Notes under the pieces: model-generated
Told to the model about the DNA's origin: nothing
The model's input: only the letters and a program-made list of their open reading frames with translations
The model's database searches: none
Program-made: the position numbers and the translations under genes
Virus record (IMG/VR): IMGVR_UViG_3300021961_000386
Span: 1-31,147 of that record
Reading direction: 5' to 3' (one strand)
Source of the DNA: a virus
Length of the DNA: 31,147 nucleotides
Shown: piece by piece, positions 3,619 through 22,807 of the stretch
How the letters are laid out: each line of letters starts with the position of its first letter
Position numbering within the stretch: position 1 is the first letter of the stretch

Positions 3619-3647
3619 TTGACATTTGTTTGCCGATGATATATGAT
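3619..3647 (+). promoter_or_regulatory. Sigma70-type promoter for the VWA gene
   Basis: TTGACA (3619-3624), 17 nt, TATGAT (3642-3647). The ATG of the VWA gene is 25 nt downstream with GAGGAGAG between. The 12-mer TGACACTTGACA at this site recurs at the promoter at 6193. Confidence 0.87.
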
Positions 3648-3671: not shown

Positions 3672-5984
3672 ATGGCTGACACGAAGATGGTTACACCTGG
3701 CGCGCTTGACAAGCTGGCTAAGCTGCTTGCTGCCGAAGATATCATGGTCGAACATCGCCCGATCAAAACGGCATACTTCGACGTGAAAAATCGTGTCTTG
3801 GCTTTGCCTATGTGGAAAGAGATGACTGAAACTCTGTACCACATGCTCGTGCTTCACGAGGTTGGTCATGCCCTCGAAACTCCAGCCGATGGTTGGAAAG
3901 GTTCTATTGAGAAGGTCAAAGAACGCGATGGTGTGCGCACTGGCGATACATTTCAAGGCTATCTCAATGTCGTTGAGGACGCGCGTATCGAACGCAAGGT
4001 CAAGCTAAAATTTCCTGGCTCTCGTCGTGACTTCATCGAAGGCTATAATTGGCTGCACGAACAGGACTTCTTTTCTGTCAAGAACAGAGACATTCAGCAG
4101 CTGCCATTGATTGACCGCATCAATCTTTATTTCAAGATTGGCACTCGTGCGCGCATTCTCTTTGCTCCAGATGAGCAAGTGTTCGTGAGCCGAGCCGAAC
4201 AGACAATCACGTTTGCCGAGGTTGTTCAGCTTGCTGAAGATATCTTTGCCTATGCCAAAAAGAAAAAAGAAGATGAGCAGGAAGAGCAGACATTCCAGAT
4301 TTTTGCCGAAGATGGCGAAGGCGACGAAGGTGACGATTATAACGAGTCAGACGTCGACAATGACGGCGAAGAAGGCAATGACGATGCTGAAGATGCTGAA
4401 GCTTCAGCCGAGAAAGACGTCAACGCAACCGGCGACCAGTCAGATCGTAGCGAAGGCGGTAACAATTCCGATCCAATGGACCATGGTGGTCTCGAATCCC
4501 TTACAGATCGTTCTATGAATGATCGTATGGAAGAGCTGCTTGACGAGTCAGTTTCTGGTCGTGAGTTTCAATATCTCATGTTCCCGAAAGATTTGGCTTT
4601 TGAGCCTTTTACCTATAACTTCAAGGATGTGCTTGGCTGGATCGAATACGACTTCACAAGAGGCAAGAAATCTTCTGTTGCCACTGGCTATCGCACTTAT
4701 CTGCTCAATAACTTCCGTCGTGAGAATAACAACGCCATCAACTATATGGTGAAGGAATTCGAAATGAAGAAGGCTGCGGTTGCATATAGCCGTAGCAAGC
4801 AAGCCAAGACTGGTGTTATTGATACAAACAAGCTGCACAGCTATAAGTTCAACGACGACATCTTCAAACGTCTGATGATTGAGCCGACTGGTAAAAATCA
4901 CGGTGTGGTTGCTATTCTTGATATGTCAGGCTCTATGTCTGGTAACTTCCGCGGCGCGATGGATCAGCTAATCTGCTTGGCTATGTTCTGCCGTCGTGTT
5001 GGTATTCCGCATCGTTTTTACGGTTTCACTTCTGTTATCAATGCTGGATTGTTCGATGTGTCTTTCCGAGAAAAGATGCTTCATAAAGAACGTGCACGTA
5101 CAGCCAACAAGGCGAACATACTGGCTCGTCTCAAGAAGCCGTTTGTGTATCCTGATTCAGACTTCGATATGATCGAACTGTTTCATGAGGATATGAACTT
5201 GAAGGAGTTCAACACGATGGTTGGCTCACTTCTTTTGCAGGCTACTCGTTTTAGTCCGGGATATGGCTATAGCGACTATTGCGACGAGTATGTCAAAAAG
5301 TCTGGCTACAATACTGCATACGAATTGATCCTCAATACTATGACTAATGGTGCGATGCATTACTTTTCGCTCGGCGGTACACCGTTGAACGAAGCCATTT
5401 TGGTGTCGCGTGATCTATTGCGTAAGTTCCGCAAGGAAAAGAACATTCAGATCATGAACTACATTTGTATCACCGATGGCGAAAGCAATATGGCATCCTA
5501 TGTTGATGCTTATGGTAAACGTCAAGCTTTGAATTGTGGTTATAGCAAAAACACAACTCGTATCTTTATCGACGAGGAATCTCGTATGCAGACTACGATC
5601 AACTTTCAGTCGAGTGCTGATTTGACTGGCATGTTTGCGCGTATTGTTCGTGATAGCCAAGATGCTAAGTTTGTTGGCTTCTATATTGTAAGCAGCCCTT
5701 ACGATATTCGTAATGCCATCTATCGCTATGTTCCGTATGCCAAGCAAGAAGGCTGTCGTAACCAAATGAGCAAAGAAGGTTCTGTGGTTATTCCTGACAT
5801 GATTAACTTCCACGAGTTCTATTTGATCCGTGGCGGCAAGAATCTTCAAAGCCAACAGGCTAAGTTTGAAGAAGCCAAAGAAATGACAAAAGGTCAACTA
5901 GCGCGGGCATTTATTGGTGCTCAGAACAAGCGTGGCGCAAGCCGCGTGATCCTCGGTCGGTTTATTGACAAGATTGCCTCTTGA
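3672..5984 (+). CDS. HExxH and von Willebrand factor A domain protein (CobT-like)
   Basis: A 770-residue protein. Near the N-terminus, LHEVGHALE (61-69) is an HExxH zinc-binding motif, and NVVEDARIE about 35 residues later may supply a third Glu ligand, as in putative metallopeptidases of this group. A very acidic linker (roughly 195-290) follows. The C-terminal half is a von Willebrand factor A domain whose metal site is DMSGSMS at 417-423. VWA proteins of this kind work with MoxR/CobS-type AAA ATPases, and such an ATPase lies two genes downstream. In cobalt chelatase the CobS-CobT pair inserts cobalt, but in T4-like phages the pair has no proven job; remodelling or proteolysis of a host or virion complex is plausible. 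A promoter immediately upstream and another overlapping its stop codon suggest early or middle expression. Confidence 0.88.
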   Translation: MADTKMVTPGALDKLAKLLAAEDIMVEHRPIKTAYFDVKNRVLALPMWKEMTETLYHMLVLHEVGHALETPADGWKGSIEKVKERDGVRTGDTFQGYLNVVEDARIERKVKLKFPGSRRDFIEGYNWLHEQDFFSVKNRDIQQLPLIDRINLYFKIGTRARILFAPDEQVFVSRAEQTITFAEVVQLAEDIFAYAKKKKEDEQEEQTFQIFAEDGEGDEGDDYNESDVDNDGEEGNDDAEDAEASAEKDVNATGDQSDRSEGGNNSDPMDHGGLESLTDRSMNDRMEELLDESVSGREFQYLMFPKDLAFEPFTYNFKDVLGWIEYDFTRGKKSSVATGYRTYLLNNFRRENNNAINYMVKEFEMKKAAVAYSRSKQAKTGVIDTNKLHSYKFNDDIFKRLMIEPTGKNHGVVAILDMSGSMSGNFRGAMDQLICLAMFCRRVGIPHRFYGFTSVINAGLFDVSFREKMLHKERARTANKANILARLKKPFVYPDSDFDMIELFHEDMNLKEFNTMVGSLLLQATRFSPGYGYSDYCDEYVKKSGYNTAYELILNTMTNGAMHYFSLGGTPLNEAILVSRDLLRKFRKEKNIQIMNYICITDGESNMASYVDAYGKRQALNCGYSKNTTRIFIDEESRMQTTINFQSSADLTGMFARIVRDSQDAKFVGFYIVSSPYDIRNAIYRYVPYAKQEGCRNQMSKEGSVVIPDMINFHEFYLIRGGKNLQSQQAKFEEAKEMTKGQLARAFIGAQNKRGASRVILGRFIDKIAS

Positions 5985-6009
5985 CACTAACTTGCCAACC
6001 ATATATACT
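5981..6009 (+). promoter_or_regulatory. Promoter whose -35 box contains the VWA stop codon
   Basis: TTGACA (5981-5986), 17 nt, TATACT (6004-6009). The TGA stop of the VWA gene is bases 5982-5984, inside the -35 hexamer. It serves the small gene at 6034. Confidence 0.85.
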
Positions 6010-6033
6010 GGTACAGTAATGAGGAGAAAGCCA

Positions 6034-6189
6034 ATGTTCAAGGTAAGCTATACACTCAAAGACGATAACAAGCTGCTTCACGAGGAATCGGCTACGTTTC
6101 GTTACCTCAAGGACGCGTTCGTGTTTATGCGCGAACTGCTGCTCCTTGGCGCAAAGCTTGTCGGCAAACCTACCATCGAGAGAATGTGA
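6034..6189 (+). CDS. Small protein of unknown function (51 aa)
   Basis: A 51-residue protein. ATG 6034 is preferred to upstream in-frame starts (from 5965) because GAGGAGAAAG (6021-6030) precedes it directly and the upstream starts lie before or inside the promoter at 5981-6009. The sequence has an N-terminal beta-like half and a helix-forming half (AFVFMRELLLLGAKLVG) that is moderately hydrophobic but probably too short and charged to cross a membrane. It sits between the VWA protein and its likely ATPase partner with its own promoter, so a regulatory or adaptor role is conceivable. I do not recognise it. Confidence 0.72.
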   Translation: MFKVSYTLKDDNKLLHEESATFRYLKDAFVFMRELLLLGAKLVGKPTIERM

Positions 6190-6192
6190 CAC

Positions 6193-6221
6193 TTGACAAT
6201 AGTGCGCTCATATGGTATTAT
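6193..6221 (+). promoter_or_regulatory. Sigma70-type promoter for the CobS-like ATPase gene
   Basis: TTGACA (6193-6198), 17 nt, TATTAT (6216-6221), 30 nt before ATG 6251. The upstream stop TGA (6187-6189) begins the shared 12-mer TGACACTTGACA. Confidence 0.85.
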
Positions 6222-6250
6222 AAGATATAAGATGATGAAAGGTGATGGTA

Positions 6251-7456
6251 ATGTTGAAGGCTAATCAAACCAAGTTCCTCGAAGCCATGACTTCGATTTA
6301 TGGTAAGAATGCTATTGTTACTATGGCAGGCATCAAAGATGTTGCCGATGGTCACAAGTTCAAGCGTAACGATTACCGTTGGTTGACCCGCGAAGAACAC
6401 CGCGCAGATCGTGGCAAATATCGTTTGCCCGATCTCACGTCAACATCCAATACCGAAAATCTTGCGGCGATGGCTGCTGACATTGTTCCGATCCGCCGCG
6501 AGACTCCTGTGGTTACCAAAAAGTTTGACCCGAACGCTATCTCCGAACACGACTATGCTCAGGTTCCTGAAAAGGACAAGCACTATGTTCCGTTTGGTGA
6601 ATTCAAGATGATTGAAAAGATCGTATCATCTGGTATGTTCTTTCCTGTGTTTATCTCTGGTCACTCGGGCAACGGCAAGACCTTTATGGTCGAGCAGGTT
6701 TGCGCCAAGGTCAAGCGCCCGATGATCCGCGTTCAGATGTCGCGTGAAACTGACGAAGACGATTTGATTGGCGGCTTCCGTCTTATCGACGGCGAGACCA
6801 AGTTCATGAAGGGTCCAGTCCTTCGTGCAATGGAACTTGGTGCGCTGCTTCTCATCGACGAAGCAGACCGCGCAGATCCAGGCAAGGCTATGTGCTTGCA
6901 GGGTATCCTCGAAGGCAAGCCTTACTACATGAAGAAGACTGGCGAGATTGTTCACGCAACTCACGGCTTCAATGTTATCGTGACTGCTAATACCAAGGGT
7001 CGTGGCTCTGACGATGGTCGTTATGTTGCGGCTACCATGCTCGACGATGCTTGGCTTGAGCGTTTCCCGATTACCATCGAGCAGGAGTATCCTACTGCTG
7101 CAATTGAAAAACGCATCTTGACAAATTATCTGTCAGATGATACTATTACAGAAGATGACAAGGCGTTCATTGAACATCTTGTGGTCTGGTCAGAAATCAT
7201 TCGCAAGACCTTTACCGAAGGCGCGATTGATGAACTGATCTCAACTCGTCGTCTTGTTCATATTGCACATACGTTCCGTATGATTGGCGACCGCATGAAG
7301 GCAATCCGCCTGTGCATCAACCGTTTCGACGAAGAGACGAAGACAGCGTTCCTCGATCTCTATGCAAAGGTTGATCTCACGAACACCCCCGTCACCGAGA
7401 CTCCTGCTGCAGAAACCACCCAAGCAGCGGAGAACACTCAGGAAGTTTCTTTCTGA
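6251..7456 (+). CDS. cobS: CobS/MoxR-type AAA+ ATPase
   Basis: A 401-residue AAA+ ATPase. The Walker A motif GHSGNGKT is at about 137-144 and Walker B LLLIDEADR at about 199-207, with the sensor-1 segment VIVTANT downstream. The stretch RETDEDDLIGGFRL between them is typical of phage proteins annotated as CobS, the chelatase subunit, though they belong to the wider MoxR group. The first 100 residues form a separate N-terminal part. It probably acts with the VWA protein at 3672 as an ATP-driven remodelling pair. AAAGG at 6238-6242 gives the best spacing to ATG 6251; GTG 6242 and ATG 6245 are too close. The C-terminal tail is low-complexity (Thr, Pro, Ala, Glu). A promoter-like sequence lies inside the gene at 7118. 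Confidence 0.9.
   Translation: MLKANQTKFLEAMTSIYGKNAIVTMAGIKDVADGHKFKRNDYRWLTREEHRADRGKYRLPDLTSTSNTENLAAMAADIVPIRRETPVVTKKFDPNAISEHDYAQVPEKDKHYVPFGEFKMIEKIVSSGMFFPVFISGHSGNGKTFMVEQVCAKVKRPMIRVQMSRETDEDDLIGGFRLIDGETKFMKGPVLRAMELGALLLIDEADRADPGKAMCLQGILEGKPYYMKKTGEIVHATHGFNVIVTANTKGRGSDDGRYVAATMLDDAWLERFPITIEQEYPTAAIEKRILTNYLSDDTITEDDKAFIEHLVVWSEIIRKTFTEGAIDELISTRRLVHIAHTFRMIGDRMKAIRLCINRFDEETKTAFLDLYAKVDLTNTPVTETPAAETTQAAENTQEVSF
7118..7146 (+). promoter_or_regulatory. Possible internal promoter in the CobS-like gene
   Basis: TTGACA (7118-7123), exactly 17 nt, TACTAT (7141-7146), the same -10 variant as the UvsX promoter. It is inside the coding sequence about 340 nt before the HTH gene, which has no closer promoter. 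It could be chance, since the hexamer also encodes Leu-Thr. Confidence 0.4.
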
Positions 7457-7488
7457 GTGTAATTCAACCACCAATGGAGTATATTGTT

Positions 7489-7752
7489 ATGTCTAAGACT
7501 GAAGCTATCCTGAATGCCCTGCAGAACGGTGAAGAACTTACCGCTTCTCAGATTGCCGCTCGCTATGGCGTTGCCAAGCCGCACAATGTTATCTGCACGC
7601 TCCGCGAGCAGGGCTATGCTGTTTATCTGAACCAGCATACGAATTCGAAGGGTGAAGTCACTTCGAAGTATCGTCTTGGTACGCCTTCACGCAAGATGGT
7701 TGCTGCTGCTTATGCCGCTATGGGCAGCGAAGCTTTCTCGCGCGCAGCCTAA
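7489..7752 (+). CDS. Small helix-turn-helix protein
   Basis: An 87-residue protein with a likely winged helix-turn-helix: the segment ELTASQIAARYGVAKPHNVI (about 18-37) has the spacing of a HTH, and the following strand pair (GYAVYLNQ, KYRLG) fits the wing. Probably a DNA-binding regulator, target unknown. The GGAG at 7476-7479 is 9 nt before ATG 7489; the in-frame ATG at 7474 overlaps it and is rejected. A hairpin follows the gene directly. It is placed between the CobS-like ATPase and bS21, with no consensus promoter in the 32-nt gap upstream. Confidence 0.8.
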   Translation: MSKTEAILNALQNGEELTASQIAARYGVAKPHNVICTLREQGYAVYLNQHTNSKGEVTSKYRLGTPSRKMVAAAYAAMGSEAFSRAA

Positions 7753-7811: not shown

Positions 7812-8051
7812 TTGACTACTGATAATCGTGAGCCTTGGGAACACCTCAAGGGTATTTCTGTAACCGTTCGCAACAATGATGTGAACGGTGCTTTGCGCAT
7901 TCTAAAGAAGAAAGTCCAGCGTGAAAATCTTTTGCGTGATCTTTCCGAACGTGAACATTTCACAAAGCCTTCTATCAAGCGCCGCCTGAAAAAGCAGCAG
8001 GCTGTTATTCGTTGGAAGAAAAAACAAGCTGAGATTGCTGAGACACTCTAA
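7812..8051 (+). CDS. rpsU: Ribosomal protein bS21
   Basis: A 79-residue homologue of small-subunit protein bS21. The core GISVTVRNNDVNGALRILKK and the basic segment FTKPSIKRRLKKQQAVIR match the cellular protein (VKVxExxxxxxALRRFKR, then FYEKPTxxRKRxxAxAxKR). bS21 sits next to the 3' end of 16S rRNA and aids start-site selection through the Shine-Dalgarno helix. Phage-encoded bS21 is known and can enter host ribosomes. The start must be TTG 7812, because a stop codon (TAA 7809-7811) directly precedes it in frame and GGAG (7802-7805) is 6 nt away; no in-frame ATG exists near the N-terminus. A weak start codon could limit its level. It follows the cUACGg hairpin. Confidence 0.92.
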   Translation: MTTDNREPWEHLKGISVTVRNNDVNGALRILKKKVQRENLLRDLSEREHFTKPSIKRRLKKQQAVIRWKKKQAEIAETL

Positions 8052-8092: not shown

Positions 8093-8959
8093 ATGGCAGC
8101 AATGGAAATTTCAGTATCTATTGAAGAACTACGCAAAAAGAAAATCTTCGTCGCTACCCCAATGTATGGTGGTGCCTGCGGAGGTCAGTATACCAAGTCA
8201 TCTGTCGATCTTGCACAGCTTGCGACCCAGTATGGCATGGACGTTCGCTTCTTCTATCTCTTCAACGAATCGCTAATCACTCGCGCTCGCAACTATCTGG
8301 TCGACGAGTTTCTTCGCAGTGATTGCACTCATCTCATGTTCATCGACTCCGATATTGGTTTCGATCCGAACGACGTTATCGCTCTCGCAGTTATTGCTGA
8401 AGAGGGCACTGACAAGCATATTGTCTGCGGTCCTTATCCTAAGAAGTGTATTGCTTGGGAAAAGATCAAGCGCGCAGTCGATAAAGGTTTCGCTGACAAG
8501 AATCCAGAGAATCTGGAAAAGTATGTTGGTGACTACGTGTTCAATCCAAAGGAAGGTACTGGTTCTATCCCACTCGACGAACCAGTTGAAGTGCTCGAAG
8601 GCGGCACTGGTTTCATGATGATCCAGCGAGCAGCTCTTGAGAGGTTTCAAGCGTCTTATCCTCAATACATGTATAAGCCCGATCACGTTCGTACAGAACA
8701 CTTCGATGGTTCGCGTGAAATCCTGATGGCTTTCCAAGCGGAAGTCGATCCTGTCTCAAAGCGTTATCTCTCTGAAGACTACTGGTTCTGCCAGAAGGCT
8801 TGGGAGATCGGCGTCAAGACTTGGCTGTGTCCGTGGATGAAGCTCCAGCACATGGGTTCCTATGTGTTCGGTGGTTCGCTCGTTGACTTGGCTCAGATTG
8901 GCGCTGGTGCTACTGCTGATGTCGATCTTGTCAAGCCTAGAAACTTCAAAGGTAAGTAA
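8093..8959 (+). CDS. GT-A-type glycosyltransferase-like protein
   Basis: A 288-residue protein with the outline of a GT-A glycosyltransferase: KKIFVATPMYGG (16-27) starts the nucleotide-sugar domain, MFIDSDIGFDP (82-92) carries the DxD motif (D85, D87) that binds metal and sugar nucleotide, and SEDYWFCQKAWEIG near the C-terminus matches the late acidic motif of such enzymes. T4-like phages often carry one. It could glycosylate modified phage DNA bases, a virion protein or a host surface sugar; nothing here decides. GGAG (8083-8086) precedes ATG 8093; the second ATG at 8102 is less well placed. It ends with TAATG overlap to the next gene. Confidence 0.82.
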   Translation: MAAMEISVSIEELRKKKIFVATPMYGGACGGQYTKSSVDLAQLATQYGMDVRFFYLFNESLITRARNYLVDEFLRSDCTHLMFIDSDIGFDPNDVIALAVIAEEGTDKHIVCGPYPKKCIAWEKIKRAVDKGFADKNPENLEKYVGDYVFNPKEGTGSIPLDEPVEVLEGGTGFMMIQRAALERFQASYPQYMYKPDHVRTEHFDGSREILMAFQAEVDPVSKRYLSEDYWFCQKAWEIGVKTWLCPWMKLQHMGSYVFGGSLVDLAQIGAGATADVDLVKPRNFKGK

Positions 8960-9205: not shown

Positions 9206-9226
9206 TATATTATTGGAGGCTACATG

Positions 9227-9892
9227 ATGAAACTGTCTAAAGAAACCACTGAAATCCTGAAGAACTTTGCGACAATCAATCCGTCGCTAATCTTTCAGGC
9301 TGGTACGGTACAAAAGACCGTATCTCCTACCAAGACTGTCTTGGTAAAGGCAAACATTAGCGAATCGTTCGCTAAGGAATTTGCTATCTATGATTTGACT
9401 CAGTTCATCTCGACTATTACAATGTTCGAAGATGCTGATTTGAATCTTGGTAATGATACTGTTACCATTACCAATGGCAAAGCAAAAGCAAACATTCGCT
9501 ATGCCAAGAGCGATCTTATTCAAGCTCCTCCTGCTAAGGAAATCAATCTTCCATCAACGGAAATTAGCTTTACCTTGGAAGAAGCTGCTATGAAGGGCGC
9601 TCTCCGTGCTGCTGGTGTTCTGGGTCTACCAGAAATTGCTCTTGTTGGTAAGAACGGTAAGGCTTATCTTACTGCTCTCGACTCACGCAACGATGGCTGT
9701 CATACCTTTGAGTATGAAGTTGGCGATGCCAATGCTAACTACCGCATGATCTACAAGATCGACAATCTAAAGTTGCTGGACCGTGAATACGAAGTTCGTG
9801 TTTCAGCTAAGGGTATCTCGCACTTCAAGTCCAAGACTGGCGATATCGAATACTGGATTGCGACCGAACAAGGTAGTAAATACGGTGAATAA
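9227..9892 (+). CDS. 45: DNA polymerase sliding clamp gp45
   Basis: A 221-residue homologue of T4 gp45, the trimeric ring that tethers polymerase gp43 to DNA and, in T4, also activates late transcription. The start MKLSKETTEILKNFATINPS is nearly the T4 N-terminus (MKLSKDTTALLKNFATINSG), which is why ATG 9227 is preferred to the adjacent ATG 9224; the GGAGG at 9215-9219 spaces better to 9227. The length matches T4 (228). The conserved YDLTQFISTI region and the closing strands are present. It opens the replication group and is followed by a hairpin that separates it from gene 44, perhaps because more clamp than loader is needed. The T4-type late boxes in this window suggest that its late-transcription role is kept. 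Confidence 0.97.
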   Translation: MKLSKETTEILKNFATINPSLIFQAGTVQKTVSPTKTVLVKANISESFAKEFAIYDLTQFISTITMFEDADLNLGNDTVTITNGKAKANIRYAKSDLIQAPPAKEINLPSTEISFTLEEAAMKGALRAAGVLGLPEIALVGKNGKAYLTALDSRNDGCHTFEYEVGDANANYRMIYKIDNLKLLDREYEVRVSAKGISHFKSKTGDIEYWIATEQGSKYGE

Positions 9893-9939: not shown

Positions 9940-10878
9940 ATGCGTGAAGAATTTCTCTGGGTTGAAAAGTATCGTCCTCGCAAGATTGCAGACTGTGTTC
10001 TGCCTGAGGATTTGAAGTTCACATTTCAGGAGTTTGTGAACAATGATAATATTCCAAATCTTCTTCTCTCTGGTAGTGCTGGTGTTGGTAAGACAACAGT
10101 GGCTCGTGCCATGCTGGAAGAAATCAACGCCGACTATATTGTTATCAACGGATCGATGAATGGTAACATCGACACTCTCCGAACCGACATTCGAAACTTT
10201 GCAGCGACTGTGTCATTCACAGGCGGAAGAAAGTATGTTATTCTCGACGAAGCTGACTATCTTAATGCCAATTCGACGCAACCAGCGTTGCGTAACTTTA
10301 TGGAAGAATTTTCCAGCAACTGCGGGTTCATTCTCACCTGTAACTTTATCAACAGGATTATCGATCCACTTCATTCTCGCTGTTCCGTCATAGAGTTCAA
10401 GATCGGTGCTAAGGAGAAAGCTGAACTTGCGAAGCAGTTTCTCGCGCGCGCGTGCGGGATTCTGGATCAAGAAAATGTTGGTTACGAAAAGAAAGTCTTG
10501 GCTGAAGTGATTATGAAGCACTTCCCAGACTGGCGTCGAGTTCTCAACGAGCTTCAGCGTTATTCTGTTCGTGGTACAATCGATTCTGGTATTCTCGCGA
10601 GTGTTGACAATGTAGAGATCAAGGAACTTGTCAAATATCTAAAAGGTCGCGAATTCGAATCCATGCGCAAGTGGGTTGCTACGAACGCTTCGATGGATGT
10701 CAATACACTATTCCGCAAGCTATATGATGCAGCAAGTGATATCATGAAGCCAGATTCGATTCCAGCACTTGTTCTTGCTTTGGCTGACTATCAATACAAA
10801 GCTGCGTTTGTCGTCGATCAAGAAATCAATATGGCTGCTTGCATGACGCAGATCATGATGGATTGTGAGTTCAAGTAA
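9940..10878 (+). CDS. 44: Clamp loader large subunit gp44
   Basis: A 312-residue AAA+ ATPase (T4 gp44 has 319) that with gp62 opens and loads the gp45 ring. WVEKYRP (7-13) is the RFC-box start, GSAGVGKT (45-52) is Walker A, LDEADYLN (102-109) is Walker B, and SRC (146-148) carries the arginine finger that senses ATP in the neighbouring subunit. The C-terminal domain is alpha-helical as in the family. GGAG at 9931-9934 precedes ATG 9940. Its stop overlaps the next gene (TAATG), so the nuclease gene that follows is translationally coupled to it rather than gene 62 as in T4. Confidence 0.97.
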   Translation: MREEFLWVEKYRPRKIADCVLPEDLKFTFQEFVNNDNIPNLLLSGSAGVGKTTVARAMLEEINADYIVINGSMNGNIDTLRTDIRNFAATVSFTGGRKYVILDEADYLNANSTQPALRNFMEEFSSNCGFILTCNFINRIIDPLHSRCSVIEFKIGAKEKAELAKQFLARACGILDQENVGYEKKVLAEVIMKHFPDWRRVLNELQRYSVRGTIDSGILASVDNVEIKELVKYLKGREFESMRKWVATNASMDVNTLFRKLYDAASDIMKPDSIPALVLALADYQYKAAFVVDQEINMAACMTQIMMDCEFK

Positions 10879-11381
10879 TGAGCAATATTGTTTCTCTGAT
10901 CGAAGAACGTTTTCTGCAACCAGAAGAATCTGATCATAGATATGACAAATCACCATTCAAACATCTAAAGAGCATGTTGCCTAAACAAAAGGGCAAACGG
11001 TTCGAACAGATTACCGAATGTGTAATTCGCAAGCTCGGTTATGATGTAAGAGATCGTGTATCGCCTGATCACGATCTTATCATCGACAATATAAAGTGCG
11101 AGATCAAAGGTGCAACTTTGGTCAAAGGCAAAGACATCTTTTCGTTTCTACAGATACGAGCAGATCAAGACTATCAAGAACTAGTCTTTACTTTATTCTA
11201 TCCGCATGATATGATTATTCTTAGAATGGACAAAGAACTGGTAAAGACATTAATAAATAATGGTACGTTCAAGAAGCAGCACGGTGGCAACAAGGCTGAG
11301 TCTGGAACGTATTGCTACTACGGAAACGAAAAGACACTTGAAGCACTTGGGGCAACCAGAGTAAATGGAAAGTCTGCCTAA
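10878..11381 (+). CDS. PD-(D/E)xK nuclease-like protein
   Basis: A 167-residue protein with the signature of a PD-(D/E)xK nuclease: E43 in a helix (GKRFEQITECVI), PDHDLI with D64/D66, CEIKG with E75 and K77, then FLQIR with Q92, the usual order of a type II restriction enzyme core. It overlaps gene 44 by one base and the following DNA methyltransferase gene by 17 nt. The nuclease-methyltransferase pairing suggests a restriction-modification module or a DNA-modification-dependent nuclease; a replication or recombination nuclease is the alternative given its place in the replication operon. Start ATG 10878 has no strong Shine-Dalgarno sequence, which fits translational coupling. Confidence 0.78.
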   Translation: MSNIVSLIEERFLQPEESDHRYDKSPFKHLKSMLPKQKGKRFEQITECVIRKLGYDVRDRVSPDHDLIIDNIKCEIKGATLVKGKDIFSFLQIRADQDYQELVFTLFYPHDMIILRMDKELVKTLINNGTFKKQHGGNKAESGTYCYYGNEKTLEALGATRVNGKSA

Positions 11382-12291
11382 GACAATTACCACTCAGGAA
11401 TTGATGAGCTTGGACTATCGCTACAACTATAGCGATGACGAGCTTATGCAAGACTGGGAAAAGCTACGAGCCACAATCAAGTTCAAGTCTGGTGCGCAGT
11501 TCAAGCCTGGTATGAAGTTGTGTCAACACTTCTTTGACAACTTCTGGTCCATCGAAAACGAGAAGGGTCAATCCTTCGCGAAAGCGTGGGCTGACTATCA
11601 GATTATGGATCAGGTTCGTGAATGGGGATTGCAAGGCATGAGCCAGCTTTGGTTGAGCTGGATTCGTCGCGCGGTCTATATGCGTGCAAGTCTTCCCAAT
11701 TCAAGTTTCTATCGCCCGCACTTCTCAAAGCAGATTTGCATGATGACCCGTAAGTATGAAGGGCGAGTATTTGATCCTTGTATGGGTTGGGGTGGTCGCT
11801 TGCTCGGTACAGTCGCTCAAGGTTGGCATTATACTGGTTGCGATCCAAACAAACAGACCTATGCTAATCTACAGCGAATGATTAGCTTTCTTGGTATTGA
11901 CAATAGTGTATCAATTCACAATATTGGTGCCGAAGAATTTGACTTTGCCTCGATTGATCCTGTCGATGTCGTTGTAACATCTCCGCCATACTTCAATCTG
12001 GAGATTTACACAGACGATAAGAATCAGTCATACAATAAGCATGATACATATAGTAGCTGGAGAGACAACTGGTATATCCCGCTTATCGAAAAGTCTCTTG
12101 CTGTTTTGAAAGATGATGGAATCTCTGCCTGGAACGTGATGAACTTCAAAGGTAACGATCTAGTCGGTGATCTTATTTCAACTCATGAGAAGCATGGTTG
12201 GAATATTGTAGGGACAGTTGGCTTCAATAGCCCTCTGTCAAATATGAGAAAACTGAAGAACAAAGATGTGACATACCTATTCAGAAGGTAA
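11365..12291 (+). CDS. DNA (N4-cytosine or N6-adenine) methyltransferase
   Basis: A 308-residue amino-methyltransferase. FDPCMGWGGRLLG (about 135-147) is the SAM-binding motif I, and VTSPPYFN (about 203-210) is catalytic motif IV. The SPPY form is most common in N4-cytosine enzymes, while N6-adenine enzymes more often have DPPY or NPPY, so N4 is a mild preference. The first 120 residues form an extra N-terminal domain, mostly helical, that may read the target sequence. It starts inside the nuclease gene (17-nt overlap), so the two proteins are made together, as expected for a paired restriction and modification system. Protection of phage DNA from the partner nuclease or from host enzymes is inferred. 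Confidence 0.87.
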   Translation: MESLPKTITTQELMSLDYRYNYSDDELMQDWEKLRATIKFKSGAQFKPGMKLCQHFFDNFWSIENEKGQSFAKAWADYQIMDQVREWGLQGMSQLWLSWIRRAVYMRASLPNSSFYRPHFSKQICMMTRKYEGRVFDPCMGWGGRLLGTVAQGWHYTGCDPNKQTYANLQRMISFLGIDNSVSIHNIGAEEFDFASIDPVDVVVTSPPYFNLEIYTDDKNQSYNKHDTYSSWRDNWYIPLIEKSLAVLKDDGISAWNVMNFKGNDLVGDLISTHEKHGWNIVGTVGFNSPLSNMRKLKNKDVTYLFRR

Positions 12292-12297
12292 TTCGTT

Positions 12298-12870
12298 ATG
12301 AAACTGAAAACTAAATTTGAAAAGCCTAATGCTACAATGAATACACTCTTTTCCGTTCTTGGAATGGAGAAGCCTATTCTCTGTGCCGAAGATATTATGC
12401 CACAGGTATATAAGTCGCTCGGCGAATCTGGTTCATCATCAATCTACTTTGATTGGTGTACACCAGATACGGGAAAACGACGTTCGCTCGGACTTCGAAC
12501 AAGCTGCGAACGCAATCTTGATATCTCAGCTTGGTATAGACTTCGTGTAAAGTTGCCTGTAAGCAATACAAACTTTTCTTATGTTGGCGTTACTGATTCC
12601 GAAACTGGAACTCTCTATCATAGACTTTATATTGCTTGTAGTGCTATGGAAGGTACTCTTCACAAAACAGAAAGTCACGCCTTTACAAAAATCCATCATA
12701 TACTGGAAAATAATGATCTAACTTTGCACGATCTAAGTATATCGTTTGATCATTGCCCAATTCCGGAAGACTTGTTTGGTATTTCTTCTTATGAGATCGA
12801 AACACTTTTGATTGCTAATGAACGAAATCAGGGTTATGTTGTTTTGAATAAGGGGTGTTATGGCTTCTAA
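12298..12870 (+). CDS. Protein of unknown function (190 aa)
   Basis: I do not recognise this 190-residue soluble protein. It has seven or so Cys residues scattered without a clear zinc pattern and looks alpha/beta. It begins 7 nt after the DNA methyltransferase and overlaps gene 62 by 11 nt. With the two genes before it, it forms the insertion between genes 44 and 62, so it might belong to that nuclease-methyltransferase module, for example as a specificity or control subunit. AAGG (12286-12289) precedes ATG 12298 at a somewhat long spacing. Confidence 0.8.
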   Translation: MKLKTKFEKPNATMNTLFSVLGMEKPILCAEDIMPQVYKSLGESGSSSIYFDWCTPDTGKRRSLGLRTSCERNLDISAWYRLRVKLPVSNTNFSYVGVTDSETGTLYHRLYIACSAMEGTLHKTESHAFTKIHHILENNDLTLHDLSISFDHCPIPEDLFGISSYEIETLLIANERNQGYVVLNKGCYGF

Positions 12871-13255
12871 ACCTTTTATCTATGTCGAAAGTGTCAGTAA
12901 CACTAAAAAGAACTTGATGAAAGGGACAGCAAATGATGAATTGGCTGAAAAAGGATACGATCCCTATAAAACCAACAAATCGATGTCATACTTTTCTGAC
13001 GGTATTCTTTTTGCCAACGAGATGAATATGAGGCCTCATCTCGACAACAAGCCACAATACGAGTATTTGCTAAATAGTCTGCGGAAGCGTAAAAGGTTTG
13101 CCCGATGGGTCAAGAAAGAACCTAATGCTTCCGTTGAGATGATCATGGAATACTATGGCTATGGTCGTTCGAAGGCTGAGGAAGCTCTCAGAGTTTTGAC
13201 CGATGAACAGCTTGCCATGATCGAGGTAGCACTCGACAAAGGTGGAAAGGTATGA
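12860..13255 (+). CDS. 62: Clamp loader small subunit gp62
   Basis: A 131-residue gp62, the non-ATPase subunit that completes the gp44/62 clamp loader. The segment MSYFSDGILFANEMN followed by HLDNKPQYEYLLNSLRKRKR and FARWVKK matches the short gp62 of T4-like cyanophages as I recall it; the T4 protein is longer (187). Its position before RegA agrees with the T4 order 45-44-62-regA-43. The start at 12860 overlaps the previous gene, with AAGGGG at 12850-12855 as the ribosome site. The C-terminal part (KEPNASVEMIMEYYGYGRSK to the end) looks like a small helical domain. Confidence 0.9.
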   Translation: MASKPFIYVESVSNTKKNLMKGTANDELAEKGYDPYKTNKSMSYFSDGILFANEMNMRPHLDNKPQYEYLLNSLRKRKRFARWVKKEPNASVEMIMEYYGYGRSKAEEALRVLTDEQLAMIEVALDKGGKV

Positions 13256-13659
13256 ACACATCGGTTGAAAGTATGGTCGAAGTAAAGCTTCGATCATCAG
13301 AAGATTTCCTAAAGATTCGTGAAACACTTACCCGTATTGGTGTCGCTTCTCGACGCGACAAGGTATTGTTTCAGTCATGTCATATCCTGCACAAGCAGGG
13401 TCGTTACTATATTGTTCACTTCAAAGAATTGTTTGCTCTAGATGGTAAGCCAACCAACTTCTCAGACGAAGACAAGGCTCGCCGTAATACAATTGCCAAT
13501 CTTCTTGCCGAATGGGATTTGATTGACATTGTAAGTCTGGAGAGAACTAAGGAACCAGTCGCTCCCCTAAACCAGATCAAGATTCTGGCACATAAGGAAA
13601 AGAACGATTGGAAGCTCGAAGCAAAATACAATATCGGAAAAAAACGTTCTGATACTTGA
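13252..13659 (+). CDS. regA: RegA translational repressor
   Basis: RegA binds the start regions of early phage mRNAs and blocks their translation. The 135-residue protein matches T4 RegA (122) through the middle: EDFLKIRETLTRIGVASRRD, then DKVLFQSCHILHKQGRYYIV and HFKELFALDG, each nearly identical to T4. ATG 13252 overlaps the gp62 stop (ATGA); a second start at ATG 13273 would give MVEVKLRSSEDFL, closer to the T4 N-terminus (MIEITLKKPEDFL), but has a weaker ribosome site. Many starts in this window could be targets. Its TGA stop is part of the -35 box of the Hsp20 promoter. Confidence 0.96.
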   Translation: MNTSVESMVEVKLRSSEDFLKIRETLTRIGVASRRDKVLFQSCHILHKQGRYYIVHFKELFALDGKPTNFSDEDKARRNTIANLLAEWDLIDIVSLERTKEPVAPLNQIKILAHKEKNDWKLEAKYNIGKKRSDT

Positions 13660-14584: not shown

Positions 14585-15205
14585 ATGTTAGTGACACACG
14601 AACAACTATGTCAATTCTTTGAAGATACAACAGAAGAATGGCTGTTAGAATGTTTAGAACCGCTAAACGACGCTCTAGCATTCTATGAAATCAATACCCC
14701 ACAGCGCATTGCCATGTTCTTGGCTCAAGTCGGACACGAGTCCGCAGGTATGTCTGTGATGGAAGAAAACCTAAACTATTCCGCTCAAGGTCTCAACAAG
14801 ATTTTTCCTAAGTATTTTATTCGTGCTGGTCGCGATGCAAATGCTTATGCAAAGAAGCCAGAAAAGATTGCGAACGTAGTTTATTCAAGTCGCATGGGTA
14901 ACGGCGACGAAGCATCCGGTGACGGCTATCGCTATCGTGGTCGCGGCTTTATTCAGCTTACAGGCAAGAGCAACTATAAAGCTTTTGCTGAAGATATGGA
15001 GATGCCACTTGAAGAAGCAACCGCTTGGTTGGAAACAGCTGAAGGTGCTGTCTGGTCTGCATGTTGGTTCTGGGATTCTCGTGAACTAAACAAGTGGGCT
15101 GATAAGGGTGATATTCTAACTGTAACCAAGAAGATCAACGGTGGAACAATCGGTCTTGAAGATCGTAAGCATCATTATGAAGAAGCACTACATATATTTG
15201 CATAA
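14585..15205 (+). CDS. GH19 chitinase-fold endolysin
   Basis: A 206-residue glycoside hydrolase family 19 protein of the phage lysozyme type, which cuts peptidoglycan for lysis. QVGHESAGM (48-56) holds the proposed catalytic acid E52, EENLNYS (60-66) the second acidic position, and YRGRGFIQLTGKSNY (about 117-131) is the substrate-cleft signature. No signal peptide or membrane anchor is seen, so it should need a holin; a holin-like protein is encoded two genes downstream. GGAGG (14575-14579) precedes ATG 14585. A late box CTAAATA lies 19 nt upstream. Length is typical of single-domain phage GH19 enzymes. Confidence 0.95.
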   Translation: MLVTHEQLCQFFEDTTEEWLLECLEPLNDALAFYEINTPQRIAMFLAQVGHESAGMSVMEENLNYSAQGLNKIFPKYFIRAGRDANAYAKKPEKIANVVYSSRMGNGDEASGDGYRYRGRGFIQLTGKSNYKAFAEDMEMPLEEATAWLETAEGAVWSACWFWDSRELNKWADKGDILTVTKKINGGTIGLEDRKHHYEEALHIFA

Positions 15206-15222: not shown

Positions 15223-16113
15223 ATGAATAACAAGTTTATTACAATTGATGGTTTGAAGATTCGCTATATTGACGAAGGTGCTGGTCGACCGATCCTTCTG
15301 TTGCATGGTGGTTCTATCGGTTCTTCCGTTGAATCGTTCAAGTATGTTATTCCAGGCTTGCTCAAGGCGGGATATCGTGTCCTCGGTTTTGATCAGCCTG
15401 GATGTGGTCTTTCAGACATTCCCGCAGAAGATGAGAAGGCAACTCGCGAGTATCGTGAGTTTGTTGTAACCGAGTTTGTCCAAGCACTTGATCTCAAGGA
15501 TGTAGTGCTTGTTGGTCATTCTCAGTCTGGTGGTATCGTAGGAAAGTTGCTGCTAAAGAAACCCGAGTTCTGCACTGCTGCTGTTTTCCTTTGCGCTGGA
15601 ATCTGTCTTCCACACTCAGAACGTTTCAAGCCTGGCAATCATAAGAAAGACAAGCACGAAAACTTTTCGACCGAACCAACGGTCGAAGATATACGCACAT
15701 TCTTCGAATACAATCTCTACAACCATGATCTTATCACAGAAGAAGTTCTGAATGATAGACTCAAATATAGTGTAGGTGATTTATACAATTTCTTCGTAAA
15801 GCATAGAAGTATGCCTAAGAACACAGACTACTATCTGTGGGCTAAGTTCATTGAAGTGGATATCCCCATGATGTTTGTTTATGGTGGGTCTGACGACAAA
15901 CGGGACGATGCAACAGTTAGGGTTGAAAAGATGCGAGCGGTTTATCCGTATCCACACTTCTCAATTCATCTATTCGATAACTGCAAGCATTATCCTCATT
16001 GGGATCATCCAGAACTTACTGTCGATAAGGTCATTGAATTCCTAGAAAATTATAAAGAAAAGGAAACACAATGCCTAGATTTGGAAACCCAGACCCAAAC
16101 GAAGAACCAGTAA
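15223..16113 (+). CDS. Alpha/beta-hydrolase fold protein
   Basis: A 296-residue alpha/beta hydrolase. LLHGGS (26-31) forms the oxyanion hole, VGHSQSGG (97-104) is the nucleophile elbow with Ser100, YGGSDDKRDD near residue 224 is a likely place for the acid, and HYPHWDHPE near 260 carries the catalytic His. The full triad appears present, so an esterase, lipase or amidase activity is likely, substrate unknown. Its place between endolysin and holin-like genes makes a role in breaking the envelope (for example cutting lipid or mycoloyl/acyl bonds) attractive, but a host-metabolism enzyme picked up by the phage fits as well. The 3' end overlaps the next gene by 43 nt. Confidence 0.88.
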   Translation: MNNKFITIDGLKIRYIDEGAGRPILLLHGGSIGSSVESFKYVIPGLLKAGYRVLGFDQPGCGLSDIPAEDEKATREYREFVVTEFVQALDLKDVVLVGHSQSGGIVGKLLLKKPEFCTAAVFLCAGICLPHSERFKPGNHKKDKHENFSTEPTVEDIRTFFEYNLYNHDLITEEVLNDRLKYSVGDLYNFFVKHRSMPKNTDYYLWAKFIEVDIPMMFVYGGSDDKRDDATVRVEKMRAVYPYPHFSIHLFDNCKHYPHWDHPELTVDKVIEFLENYKEKETQCLDLETQTQTKNQ

Positions 16114-16897: not shown

Positions 16898-16906
16898 TAC
16901 ATTATG
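16882..16906 (+). promoter_or_regulatory. Hairpin over the gene 43 start codon, possible translational operator
   Basis: CATAATGTA (16882-16890) pairs perfectly with TACATTATG (16898-16906) around a 7-nt loop. The stop codon of the upstream gene is in one arm and the polymerase ATG (16904-16906) in the other, and no Shine-Dalgarno sequence is present. T4 gp43 represses its own translation by binding a hairpin at this place, so an equivalent operator is inferred; RegA could also act here. Confidence 0.6.
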
Positions 16907-19414
16907 AAATTTTACACAAATGTCCTTGAATACGGCAACAACATTCTCGTTCGCGGTTACGACCGCGGACGTCCCTTCAATGAAAAGATTCCATATCAAC
17001 CAACTCTCTATCTTCCGTCAAAGCGCCCAAACGCCGAATGGAAAACTATCCGTGGGCTTCCGCTTGATCCGATGCCTTTCGATTCCATTCGTGATGCGAA
17101 AGACTTTCTTCAGCGATACGAAGATGTCAGCAACTTTGATGTCTATGGTCTTCCGCGCTTTCTCTATGCCTATCTCAACGACGAGTATCAGAACGAGATC
17201 GTTTATGATCGCGATCTAATCAAGGTTGCATATATCGATATCGAGGTTAGCTCTGAGTTTGGCTTTCCAACTGTCGACCGTGCATCCGATACTGTTACCG
17301 CTATCACTCTAAAGAAAGATGGTATCTTTCATGTTTGGGGTTATGGTGAGTTTGAAGTAAAGCGCGATGATGTTCGTTACTATCAATGCAACAACGAGAA
17401 GGAACTCTTTATCAAGTTTCTGAGCGAGTGGAGCAACGAGTATCCAGATATCGTGACTGGCTGGAACGTTACGTTCTTCGATATTCCGTATCTTGTTCGT
17501 CGCATGAGCGCAGTTCTCGGCGAAAGCGAAGCGAAGCGTTTCTCTCCTTGGAAGATTATCAAAGCACGACAGGTTCGCACAAAGTTCAAAGAAGAAACCG
17601 TCTATAACATTGGCGGTGTCGCTACACTCGACTATCTTGAAATGTATCAGAAGTTCACTTATACTCAGCAAGAGAGTTATAAGCTGGACCATATTGCGTT
17701 TGTGGAACTTGGTGAGCGCAAGCTATCGTATGACGAATACGAAACGCTGCATGAGTTTTACATGAACGACTTCCAGAAGTTCATTGAGTATAACATTCGA
17801 GATACAGAACTTGTCGAAAAGCTAGACGACAAGATGAAGCTAATCGATATGGCTCTCGCGCTCGCGTACGACGCGAAGGTTAGTTTGATGGATGTATTCA
17901 CGCAGGTTCGCATGTGGGATACAATCATTCACAATCATCTATTCAAACAAAAGATCGCTGTTCCTCAATCTTACGATAACAAGAAAGACGAACAGTATGT
18001 TGGCGCACATGTCAAAGAACCAAAGCCCGGTGGCTATGATTGGGTTATGTCGTTCGATTTGAACTCTCTATATCCGCATCTTATCATGCAGTATAATATC
18101 TCACCCGAGACAATGCTTCGAGATAATCGTGGGCAAACTATCAAGGTCGAGACTACTGTTGATGAACTGCTCGACGGTATCTTTCCAGAAGTTCCAGATG
18201 GATATGGTCTAGCTGCAAACGGCTGCTTCTTCAGCAAAGCTCGTCAGGGCTTCTTGCCTGAGATCATGGAGCGAATGTATAATGATCGTGTCGTCTATAA
18301 AGACAAGATGATTGCAGCACAGAAGGAATACGAAGCCACAAAATCAAAACAAGCAGCGAAAGATATCTCACGATATAAGAATATGCAGCTTGCTAAAAAG
18401 GTTCAGTTGAACTCAGCTTACGGCGCGATTGGTAATCCACACTTTCGTTTCTTCGATATCAATCAAGCGACGGCTATCACTCTCGGTGGTCAGCTTTCTA
18501 TTCGTTGGGCTGAAAACGAAATGAATAAGTATTTGAATAAGCTACTCAAGACCGAGGACTATGATTATGTCATTGCTGCCGATACGGACTCGCTGTACAT
18601 CTGCTTTGATAAGCTTGTACGTCAAGTGTTTGAGGTACGAGGAGATCAGCATTCTTATTCTGAAGAAGATAAGCAAAAGATCGTCAACTTTTTGGACAAG
18701 GTCGCTTCTCAGAAAATTGAACCAGTTATTGATCGTATCTATTCGGATCTTGCTATTCGGATGGGCGCATTCGCGCAAAAGATGAACATGAAGCGAGAGG
18801 TCATCGCTGATCGTGGTATCTGGACTGCGAAGAAGCGATACATTCTCAACGTTCATGATTCTGAAGGTGTGCGCTATGCCAAGCCGAAGCTAAAGATCAT
18901 GGGCATCGAAGCGGTCAAGTCATCAACTCCTGCCGTTTGTCGTAAAGCAATTATCGATGCTCTCAGTATCATTATGACTCAACCAGAAGAAGAACTGCAC
19001 AAATTTATCGCCGAGTTCAAAACAAAGTTCTGTTCTCTTAGCTTCGAGGAAGTTGCTTTTCCGCGATCAGTCCAAGACCTAACTAAATACAAAAACGAAA
19101 CAAAGAGCATTCCGATTCATGTTCGTGGTGCATTGCTCTATAACAATTTGGTAAAGAAGAACAATCTTACCAAGAAGTATGAGCTAATCAAAGACGGAGA
19201 GAAGATTAGGTTCTCTTATCTCAAGATGCCTAATCCAGTTCGTGATAACGTAATTTGCGCTTTCTCTGCTCTTCCTTCCGAGTTTAGACTGGAAGAGTAT
19301 ATCGACTACGATATTCAATTTGAAAAAGCGTTCATGTCTCCGCTCAATTCTATTCTGCAAAACATTGGTTGGCATGCAGAAAAGCAGAGTACACTAGAGG
19401 ATTTCTTTTCGTGA
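16904..19414 (+). CDS. 43: Family B DNA polymerase gp43
   Basis: The replicative polymerase, 836 residues (T4: 898). The 3'-5' exonuclease is complete: Exo I IDIEVSS with D112 and E114 (the same numbers as T4), Exo II GWNVTFFDIPY, Exo III YNIRDTE. Polymerase motif A is DLNSLYP starting at D385, motif B KVQLNSAYGAIGN, motif C DTDSLY with D560 and D562. The C-terminus EKQSTLEDFFS matches the clamp-binding tail of T4-like polymerases. ATG 16904 agrees with the T4 start; it lacks a Shine-Dalgarno sequence and lies in a hairpin. The gene follows RegA at a distance because the hsp20 and lysis genes are inserted, unlike T4, where regA and 43 are neighbours. The end overlaps the PP-loop gene by GTGA. 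Confidence 0.98.
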   Translation: MKFYTNVLEYGNNILVRGYDRGRPFNEKIPYQPTLYLPSKRPNAEWKTIRGLPLDPMPFDSIRDAKDFLQRYEDVSNFDVYGLPRFLYAYLNDEYQNEIVYDRDLIKVAYIDIEVSSEFGFPTVDRASDTVTAITLKKDGIFHVWGYGEFEVKRDDVRYYQCNNEKELFIKFLSEWSNEYPDIVTGWNVTFFDIPYLVRRMSAVLGESEAKRFSPWKIIKARQVRTKFKEETVYNIGGVATLDYLEMYQKFTYTQQESYKLDHIAFVELGERKLSYDEYETLHEFYMNDFQKFIEYNIRDTELVEKLDDKMKLIDMALALAYDAKVSLMDVFTQVRMWDTIIHNHLFKQKIAVPQSYDNKKDEQYVGAHVKEPKPGGYDWVMSFDLNSLYPHLIMQYNISPETMLRDNRGQTIKVETTVDELLDGIFPEVPDGYGLAANGCFFSKARQGFLPEIMERMYNDRVVYKDKMIAAQKEYEATKSKQAAKDISRYKNMQLAKKVQLNSAYGAIGNPHFRFFDINQATAITLGGQLSIRWAENEMNKYLNKLLKTEDYDYVIAADTDSLYICFDKLVRQVFEVRGDQHSYSEEDKQKIVNFLDKVASQKIEPVIDRIYSDLAIRMGAFAQKMNMKREVIADRGIWTAKKRYILNVHDSEGVRYAKPKLKIMGIEAVKSSTPAVCRKAIIDALSIIMTQPEEELHKFIAEFKTKFCSLSFEEVAFPRSVQDLTKYKNETKSIPIHVRGALLYNNLVKKNNLTKKYELIKDGEKIRFSYLKMPNPVRDNVICAFSALPSEFRLEEYIDYDIQFEKAFMSPLNSILQNIGWHAEKQSTLEDFFS

Positions 19415-21757: not shown

Positions 21758-22807
21758 ATGTCTCTCAAGGAAAAACTTATCAAGAATTCAACAATCGCAT
21801 TTACGGCTACACTAGAAGATTCCAAAATCTTTACCAAGAAAGATGTTATTCCAACATCTGTACCAATGATCAACGTTGCGTTGTCTGGTTCAATAGATGG
21901 TGGTCTAGTTCCTGGCATTACAATGCTTGCTGGTCCATCGAAGCACTTCAAGACTGGCTTTGCGCTTCTTATGGCTTCGGCTTTCCTCAAGAAGTATTCT
22001 GATGGTGTAATTCTTTTCTACGATTCAGAGTTTGGTACACCGCAGGCATACTTCAATACATTTGGTATTCCGTTTGATTCGGTTGTTCATACACCAGTGA
22101 TGGATGTAGAGCAGCTAAAGTTTGATATCATGAAACAGCTGACTGGTCTTGAGCGCGGTGATCGCGTCATGATTGTCATCGATTCTATTGGCAATCTTGC
22201 TTCTAAGAAAGAAGTTGAAGATGCGCTGAATGAGAAGTCTGTTGCGGATATGTCTCGTGCGAAGCAGCTCAAGTCTTTGTTTCGTATGATTACTCCGTAT
22301 CTTACTCTCAAAGATATTCCTATGGTTGTGGTCAATCATACCTATAAAGAAATTGGTCTCTATCCAAAAGATATCGTTGGTGGTGGCACTGGTTCTTATT
22401 ATGGCTCAGACAATATCTGGATTCTTGGTCGTCAGCAAGATAAAGACTCTGACGGTATTCAAGGCTATCACTTTGTTATCAACGTGGAGAAGTCACGCTA
22501 TGTCAAAGAAAAGTCCAAGATCCCTATTACTATCAACTATGAAGGAGGTATCAATAGGTGGAGCGGTCTACTGGATATCGCTATTGATGGTAATTATATT
22601 GCTAAACCTAAGGTAGGTTGGTACGCTCGTGTCAATAGAGAAACCGGCGAAGTTATTGCTCCAAACATGAGAGCAGCTGATATCGTCGACAACGGTGAGT
22701 TGTGGAAAGATATTTTCAAGACTACAGACTTTGCAGACTACATCAAGAATCGCTATTCTATCGCACACGGCGCTATTATGGGGGAAGAAGATGAAACTAA
22801 TCAGTGA
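21758..22807 (+). CDS. uvsX: UvsX recombinase (RecA-like)
   Basis: A 349-residue strand-exchange protein of the RecA family that drives recombination-dependent replication and repair in T4-like phages. GPSKHFKTGFALLMA (about 68-82) is the Walker A region and matches T4 UvsX (GPSKSFKS), FYDSEFGTP carries the catalytic Glu, and VMIVIDSIGNL is Walker B. The stretch VVVNHTYKEIG and IVGGGTGSYYGSDNIWIL correspond to DNA-binding loop regions. The length (T4: 391) and ISMSLKEKL-type start are normal. GGAGG at 21747-21751 gives a strong ribosome site. It has its own promoter and overlaps the next gene by 17 nt, starting the uvsX-41 unit. Confidence 0.96.
   Translation: MSLKEKLIKNSTIAFTATLEDSKIFTKKDVIPTSVPMINVALSGSIDGGLVPGITMLAGPSKHFKTGFALLMASAFLKKYSDGVILFYDSEFGTPQAYFNTFGIPFDSVVHTPVMDVEQLKFDIMKQLTGLERGDRVMIVIDSIGNLASKKEVEDALNEKSVADMSRAKQLKSLFRMITPYLTLKDIPMVVVNHTYKEIGLYPKDIVGGGTGSYYGSDNIWILGRQQDKDSDGIQGYHFVINVEKSRYVKEKSKIPITINYEGGINRWSGLLDIAIDGNYIAKPKVGWYARVNRETGEVIAPNMRAADIVDNGELWKDIFKTTDFADYIKNRYSIAHGAIMGEEDETNQ

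Follow-up and report, generated by a model that had tools for sequence, protein, structure and literature searches.

A putative ATP-driven capture-and-remodeling machine with a tethered zinc protease in T4-like phages: a VWA protein and its MoxR/CobS-type ATPase

One way to understand a VWA (von Willebrand factor A) protein and a MoxR/CobS-type AAA+ ATPase encoded side by side in a T4-like phage is to regard the two as working parts of a single device. The pair considered here lies in IMG/VR virus record IMGVR_UViG_3300021961_000386, a T4-like phage contig whose 31,147 bases make up the whole stretch of DNA analyzed (the window; Table 1). By sequence comparison, its VWA protein combines a peptidase-type domain with a CobT-like VWA part, and the pair probably forms an ATP-driven machine that captures and remodels its targets and has a zinc protease tethered to it. 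A preliminary description of the window had proposed just such a VWA protein, with a metallopeptidase motif, next to a CobS/MoxR ATPase, and had preferred a substrate-capturing remodeling or protease machine to a cobalt chelatase. Both open reading frames lie where it placed them, and the HEVGH motif and the DMSGSMS motif (residues 417-423) are present; its preference for a machine over a chelatase is upheld by an HExxH motif and a metal-ion-dependent adhesion site (MIDAS) that are invariant, by the lack of HExxH in CobT and by chelatase family cut-offs that the phage proteins miss.

The literature on such pairs, in the portions available, is split: one account takes them for B12 enzymes and the peptidase label for a mistake (PMC8651126), the other takes a very similar jumbo-phage pair for a chaperone-protease (PMC7824862). 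The present data do not agree with the idea of a mistaken label; the chaperone-protease side is favored, because the zincin and MIDAS residues are invariant while bacterial CobT is without HExxH. The reading is already in print: in 2021 a MoxR-vWA pair that includes a metallopeptidase at an N-terminus was proposed for jumbo phages of group 2.2 (PMC7824862). By description, the architecture is the same as here.

The window's VWA protein matches phrog_459 with E=1.3e-182 across residues 12-769 of 770. Relatives are found in 463 phage records, 359 of them at no less than 80% of the length; 365 of the records are named Synechococcus, 61 Cyanophage and 24 Prochlorococcus. The environmental loci used throughout are the top 80 out of 595 confirmed matches to the protein. 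Clustering of 78 environmental loci and the window at 80% identity gave the 50 non-redundant sequences referred to below, the window counted; excluded before the VWA alignment were L001 (the window itself), L012 (cut by the contig end) and L015 (interrupted frame). The L015 contig has an HExxH stretch at 7389, upstream of the open frame with the VWA domain.

In the protein, an N-terminal domain with HEVGH is followed by an acidic, disordered linker and by a VWA domain whose MIDAS is complete; its full-length AlphaFold2 model has a predicted local distance difference test score (pLDDT) of 79.7. The N-terminal domain appears to be a conserved zincin-type peptidase domain, and the family's 'peptidase' label looks right. 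H62, E63, H66, N99, E102, D103 and R105 are unchanged in 50/50 non-redundant sequences; HE[VIT][GSA]H is retained in 79/79 environmental loci whose open frame spans the region; and HExxH is present in all 15 contigs from bacterial genome bins that span it, reading HECSH in one (L093), while the homolog in Ochrobactrum phage OC has HESAH. Modeled alone, residues 1-198 reach a pLDDT of 90.3 and a predicted template modeling score of 0.85, and fold as three strands, a helix (53-69) carrying HEVGH, and then a helix (88-113) bearing E102. Conservation and the position on this helix make E102 the likely third zinc ligand, and the domain likely gluzincin-like. The position of E63 is that of the general base in zincins; its invariance points to catalysis rather than to a structural zinc.

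Structural comparison leads the same way. Foldseek with the peptidase domain returned jannalysin, selecase, abylysin and ArdC as its first nine rows (E 0.08-0.5). With a second structural aligner, 19 of the 22 top rows were zinc metalloproteases, ArdC or IrrE/PprI. ZMPSTE24 came first (Z 8.0, 143 aligned, 3.4 Å), then ArdC (7.7) and BlaR1, with abylysin (Z 6.2), jannalysin (6.0) and IrrE (5.5) further down; the remaining three were Mycobacterium tuberculosis transcriptional regulator entries. Single scores are modest; the zincin assignment is made because the top rows are consistent and the HExxH motif is there. HEVGH had at the outset been taken as the sign of a peptidase, and with a conserved domain, a likely third ligand and zincins among the structural rows it may still be so taken.

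The VWA domain is well kept too. The MIDAS residues D417, S419, S421, T570 and D602 (DxSxS-T-D) are unchanged in 50/50 non-redundant sequences, and DxSxS is retained in 80/80 environmental loci and in 17/17 bacterial-bin contigs spanning it. Foldseek with the full VWA-protein model placed a pilus adhesin first (E 0.0025) and NorD in the next four rows (0.004-0.01). When the VWA domain was re-aligned, human MDN1-MIDAS scored Z 15.8 (215 aligned, 3.0 Å), partly tied with the NorD VWA (Z 14.4-15.3, root-mean-square deviation 5.8-7.3 Å) and Rea1-MIDAS (14.4); other VWA domains among the listed rows scored 11.1-12.2. These top matches, MDN1/Rea1 and NorD, are partners of AAA+ rings. An insertion at residues 604-645, with model strands at 609-611, 617-619, 628-634 and 640-643, is a candidate counterpart of the NorD pore finger, and the conserved C-terminus (R758, L761, F764 and A769, each at 90% or more) would fit the C-terminal ring contact known from NorD. 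The linker, with 30 D/E within residues 200-272, is acidic in the phage relatives and equally so in CobT, and is therefore uninformative on the chelatase question; it had been counted against a chelatase, and that argument falls. A search of PDB sequences with the VWA-protein profile gave only ryanodine-receptor matches on this acidic stretch (E 0.5-0.9), which were discarded.

The AAA+ motor is, by sequence, intact and of the MoxR/CobS type. It matches AAA_5 (E=2.8e-21) and phrog_249, 'porphyrin biosynthesis' (E=5.4e-103, residues 95-382 of 404); G143-T147, D206/E207, N250, R274 and R336/R337, which we take to be Walker A, Walker B, sensor 1, arginine finger and sensor 2, are unchanged in 42/42 sequences. 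Among single domains of solved structure, CobS is the closest (118 bits, A2 profile). Midasin has the stronger whole-chain value (E 8.7e-37 against 7.8e-17 for CobS), but this sums several AAA domains; its best single domain reaches 61 bits against 118, which rules it out by profile as the nearest relative. An anti-phage defense identity was also dropped: matches were weak, the best being IetA (PADLOC, E 2.3e-4).

The ATPase gene lies 3' of the VWA gene on the same strand in 67/67 of the environmental loci with at least 1.5 kb downstream, the gap running from 15 to 701 bp (median 102, 78 loci). Searches with the ATPase gave the same Synechococcus, Cyanophage and Prochlorococcus counts as searches with the VWA protein, which places the pair in 450 phage records bearing these names, the comparison being by counts and not record by record. 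In a mirror-tree test controlling for gp44 and gp45, VWA and ATPase distances correlated with a partial r of 0.49 (46 loci); because three control pairs gave 0.08-0.39, this is mild support only.

How might such a machine work? The template is the NorQ AAA+ ring with its VWA partner NorD, which puts a finger in the pore and makes a C-terminal contact, as set out in the available parts of two reports (PMC13036017, PMC9976466). By analogy with NorQD and midasin, the motor would assemble as a hexameric ring; the VWA domain would sit on it, inserting a hairpin finger into the pore and resting its C-terminus on the ring; the MIDAS metal would grip an acidic residue of a target protein; and ATP hydrolysis would twist the VWA domain against the N-terminal part. 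The N-terminal zincin could then cut the gripped target, so that the whole would act as a selective protease, or as a maturation factor, powered by ATP.

The phage pair resembles and departs from its models in definite ways. Like NorQ/NorD, on the accessible descriptions, it would join an AAA+ ring to a VWA partner in which a linker connects the N-domain to a VWA domain at the C-terminus, and the NorD VWA is among the best structural matches of the phage one. The phage N-domain differs in being a likely zincin with the full HExxH+E set; to our knowledge, NorD has no such set. For midasin/Rea1 the likeness extends from the MDN1-MIDAS, the top structural row (tied with NorD), to the AAA similarity, and midasin too has an acidic region ahead of its MIDAS; the phage differs in having the MIDAS on another protein than the ring, a single AAA domain in each ATPase chain, and a putative protease domain besides.

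Promoters and gene position bear on when the pair would act. Sigma-70-like promoters precede the VWA gene, the ATPase gene and a gene for a 51-residue protein between them. Sites of this quality (11/12) number eight on the two strands of the window; 40 Markov sequences average 0.7 and never exceed 2. Among the window and 14 close loci, promoters of at least 10/12 recur ahead of the VWA gene in 13/15 (the misses being L012, cut by the contig end, and L015, with its interrupted frame), the 51-residue gene in 12/15 and cobS in 15/15. Six relatives' loci of about 18 kb have 7 to 13 such promoters each; they are common across the phage lineage and therefore not special to the pair. Thus, where the preliminary description stressed that each gene has its own consensus promoter, the sites are real matches and the emphasis is misplaced, as they are a general habit of the lineage. 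The gp45 clamp gene is present in 27/27 loci having 6.5 kb of room. Sigma-70-type promoters, together with a place beside the sliding-clamp genes, suggest that the pair is probably expressed early; for the same reasons it may act early as well, its target being a protein of the host or of the replication stage, and not be confined to virion assembly.

An assembly role has its own advocates: in the accessible text on jumbo phages, a pair with the architecture found here is proposed, on the model of a tail factor from an archaeal virus, to serve virion assembly (PMC7824862), as a chaperone-protease that assembles and processes structural proteins. This is rather unlikely for the present pair, which has genes for replication and recombination, rather than structural genes, as neighbors and has sigma-70-like promoters. 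The T4 late-promoter string, TATAAAT in the part of the source available (PMC3037559), occurs five times in the window, the + strand having copies at 25611, 26054 and 29142 and the - strand at 25311 and 15785; no copy stands ahead of the pair. Gene place and promoters weigh little against an assembly role, since early proteins can serve late steps. As a separate observation, the TATAAATA strings at 25611 and 26054 (+ strand) are just 5' of open reading frames at 25623 and 26069, and their spacing to the start codons looks short for a promoter.

A further view dispenses with proteolysis: the pair would be a MoxR/VWA chaperone for metal insertion or maturation, its zincin site binding or sensing metal without cutting. 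NorQD, a well-studied MoxR/VWA pair, is reported to serve metal insertion, and the accessible parts of the reports mention no protease (PMC13036017, PMC9976466). The invariance of the general-base residue E63 and of the likely third ligand E102 in 50/50 sequences argues against it, and we give it a small chance.

The remaining alternative is the cobalamin one, in which phage CobS and CobT join the host's CobN and raise vitamin B12 output. The resemblance is genuine. Beyond the ATPase's match to solved CobS, the AAA and VWA parts are homologous to those of CobS/CobT, and the VWA domain with its preceding region is homologous to CobT (hhalign probability 91, E 1e-6, against 29 CobT). The CobT set came from 56 CobT places in 55 of 76 genomes; 30 loci and two others gave 32 frames, and 29 proteins were aligned, L119, L132 and L133 being omitted as frames that extend upstream of the likely start. 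HExxH is absent from the CobT part of 32/32 frames; only the L119 frame shows one, at residue 179, upstream of its CobT similarity. The phage zincin domain is collinear with the CobT N-terminus (NVVEDARIE / ATARCEAVG; hhalign E 0.005 against 2 CobT). Homology of these two N-terminal domains is not claimed, as against 29 CobT the values are E 0.02-0.07 with a probability of ~7% or less. PF06213, the CobT N-terminal family, has no match in the window and matches 2/50 VWA-protein relatives, at best with E 0.007; the VWA protein scores 12.9 bits against a cut-off of 21 for CobT_C (PF11775), and the ATPase 65 against 558.55 for the CobS equivalog TIGR01650. A search of 6 phage records (77-175 kb, possibly fragments) turned up no CobN in any of them, and a host CobN could serve. 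CobT has solved structures; none is among the listed structural rows, and this was not used as evidence. On missed cut-offs and absent CobT features, a cobalt chelatase was rejected as the identity of the pair; a cobalamin role with host CobN is very unlikely. No paper was found that treats phage cobS together with MoxR.

Several points weigh against the machine with a tethered protease. Foldseek reached E 0.001 neither for the full VWA-protein model nor for the peptidase domain (best 0.08), and Z values of 8 or less fall in the range that the second aligner calls common. The window's VWA protein has no Pfam zincin or VWA family at cut-off. The ATPase matches 837 records, with 236 Staphylococcus and 70 Listeria among the weaker matches, names missing from those to the VWA protein; that is, ATPase-like genes do occur without a VWA partner. 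Finally, it is solely promoter strings that indicate early timing, and the accessible cyanophage expression literature yielded no mention of these genes.

If the pair is what we suppose, a bolder proposal may be entertained, quite tentatively: an ATP-dependent protease whose zincin is carried by the substrate-gripping VWA arm instead of the ATPase, retained in the replication cluster of hundreds of T4-like phages, and employed for early disabling or maturation of one key host or replication protein. E63, E102, D417 and T570 are the exact residues for mutation. Should the protease work, the listing of phage cobS/cobT among auxiliary metabolic genes, for which PMC11288001 is an example, would need re-examination.

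Table 1. Features of the VWA/ATPase locus and replication genes of the window (residue numbers refer to the VWA protein)
Feature	Positions	Strand	Remarks
Sigma-70-like promoter of VWA gene	3619-3647	+	TTGACA-17-TATGAT, 11/12 consensus
VWA protein gene with N-terminal zincin-type metallopeptidase domain	3672-5984	+	770 amino acids, ATG; PHROG_459 'peptidase'
Zincin-type peptidase domain, residues 12-198	3705-4265	+	separate AlphaFold2 model
HEVGH motif, residues 62-66	3855-3869	+	invariant H62, E63, H66
E102, proposed third zinc ligand in NxxEDxRI	3975-3977	+	from conservation; ligand role putative
Acidic disordered linker, residues 215-272	4314-4487	+	pLDDT <50 in model
MIDAS DMSGS, residues 417-421	4920-4934	+	D417, S419, S421 invariant
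MIDAS T570	5379-5381	+	invariant
MIDAS D602	5475-5477	+	invariant
Candidate pore 'finger' insertion, residues 604-645	5481-5606	+	strands in model
Sigma-70-like promoter of 51-residue gene	5981-6009	+	TTGACA-17-TATACT, 11/12; -35 overlaps VWA stop codon
51-residue protein gene, lineage-specific	6034-6189	+	between VWA and ATPase genes
Sigma-70-like promoter of ATPase gene	6193-6221	+	TTGACA-17-TATTAT, 11/12; TG ahead of -10
MoxR/CobS-type AAA+ ATPase gene	6242-7456	+	404 amino acids, GTG start, in-frame ATG codons directly after; PHROG_249
Sliding clamp	9224-9892		T4-like replication gene
Clamp loader genes	9940-10878 and 12860-13255
RegA	13252-13659
DNA polymerase	16904-19414
UvsX-like recombinase	21758-22807
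DnaB-like helicase	23291-24712

The 51-residue gene is a real gene of its lineage. It lies between the pair in 14/14 close loci, at 62-86% identity, and a median pN/pS (ratio of non-synonymous to synonymous polymorphism) of 0.23 over 105 pairs indicates purifying selection. It was undetected in the other 66 loci (tblastn, E 1e-4, a search of little power with a protein of this length), and groups with VWA and ATPase genes ~35 bp apart have no room for it; because it is undetected beyond the close clade, it does not belong to the core of the machine. The window's copy has no match in Pfam, PHROGs, PADLOC or NCBIfam, nor in 50,697 phage records at E 10, and the 15 orthologs give single weak Pfam matches only. 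A small gene with its own promoter between the pair had been noticed at the start and offered as a possible regulator; the gene stands, and nothing supports the regulator.

Other T4-like cyanophages carry the same two families (PHROG_459 and PHROG_249) in the same order, VWA/peptidase then CobS, the VWA proteins being ~28-35% identical to the window's among the matches listed. In S-PM2 the pair sits between gp46 and gp45 (gp46, peptidase, CobS, gp45, gp44); unlike this order, the window has the 51-residue gene between the pair, and helix-turn-helix, bS21 and glycosyltransferase-like genes before gp45. Ochrobactrum phage OC (227,654 bp) belongs to the same VWA-protein family (hhalign probability 100), and its order is endonuclease subunits 1 and 2, peptide deformylase, the CobT-named and CobS-named genes, glycosyltransferase, one hypothetical and the clamp.

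Immediately 3' of the ATPase gene is a small winged-helix protein gene (7474-7752; HTH_39, E=8.4e-8), and such a gene is downstream of the ATPase in 28/53 loci; the second gene past the ATPase codes for a phage-encoded ribosomal protein, bS21 (7812-8051; PF01165, E=1.2e-15), with an S21 match within 2.5 kb downstream in 18/53. A glycosyltransferase-like protein follows (8093-8959; phrog_1574, function unassigned, with a weak Anp1 match under the cut-off). Its gene is downstream of the ATPase in 38 of the 53 loci with 2.5 kb of room, and a third partner of the VWA/ATPase pair may possibly be found in it; Ochrobactrum phage OC has its glycosyltransferase-named gene at the corresponding place after the CobS-named gene. 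Upstream of the pair are a DNA-methyltransferase-like gene (370-1656; phrog_116, E=1.8e-74) and a tRNA-methyltransferase-like gene (1646-2329; phrog_4752), the latter found within 2.5 kb upstream in 19/58 loci with room. A second, weak DNA-methyltransferase-like gene (11365-12291; phrog_498, E=8.1e-7, the best match being of unassigned function) separates the two clamp-loader genes. An endolysin gene (14585-15205) and an esterase/lipase-like gene (15223-16113) separate regA from the DNA polymerase gene; lysis genes are not usually located there.

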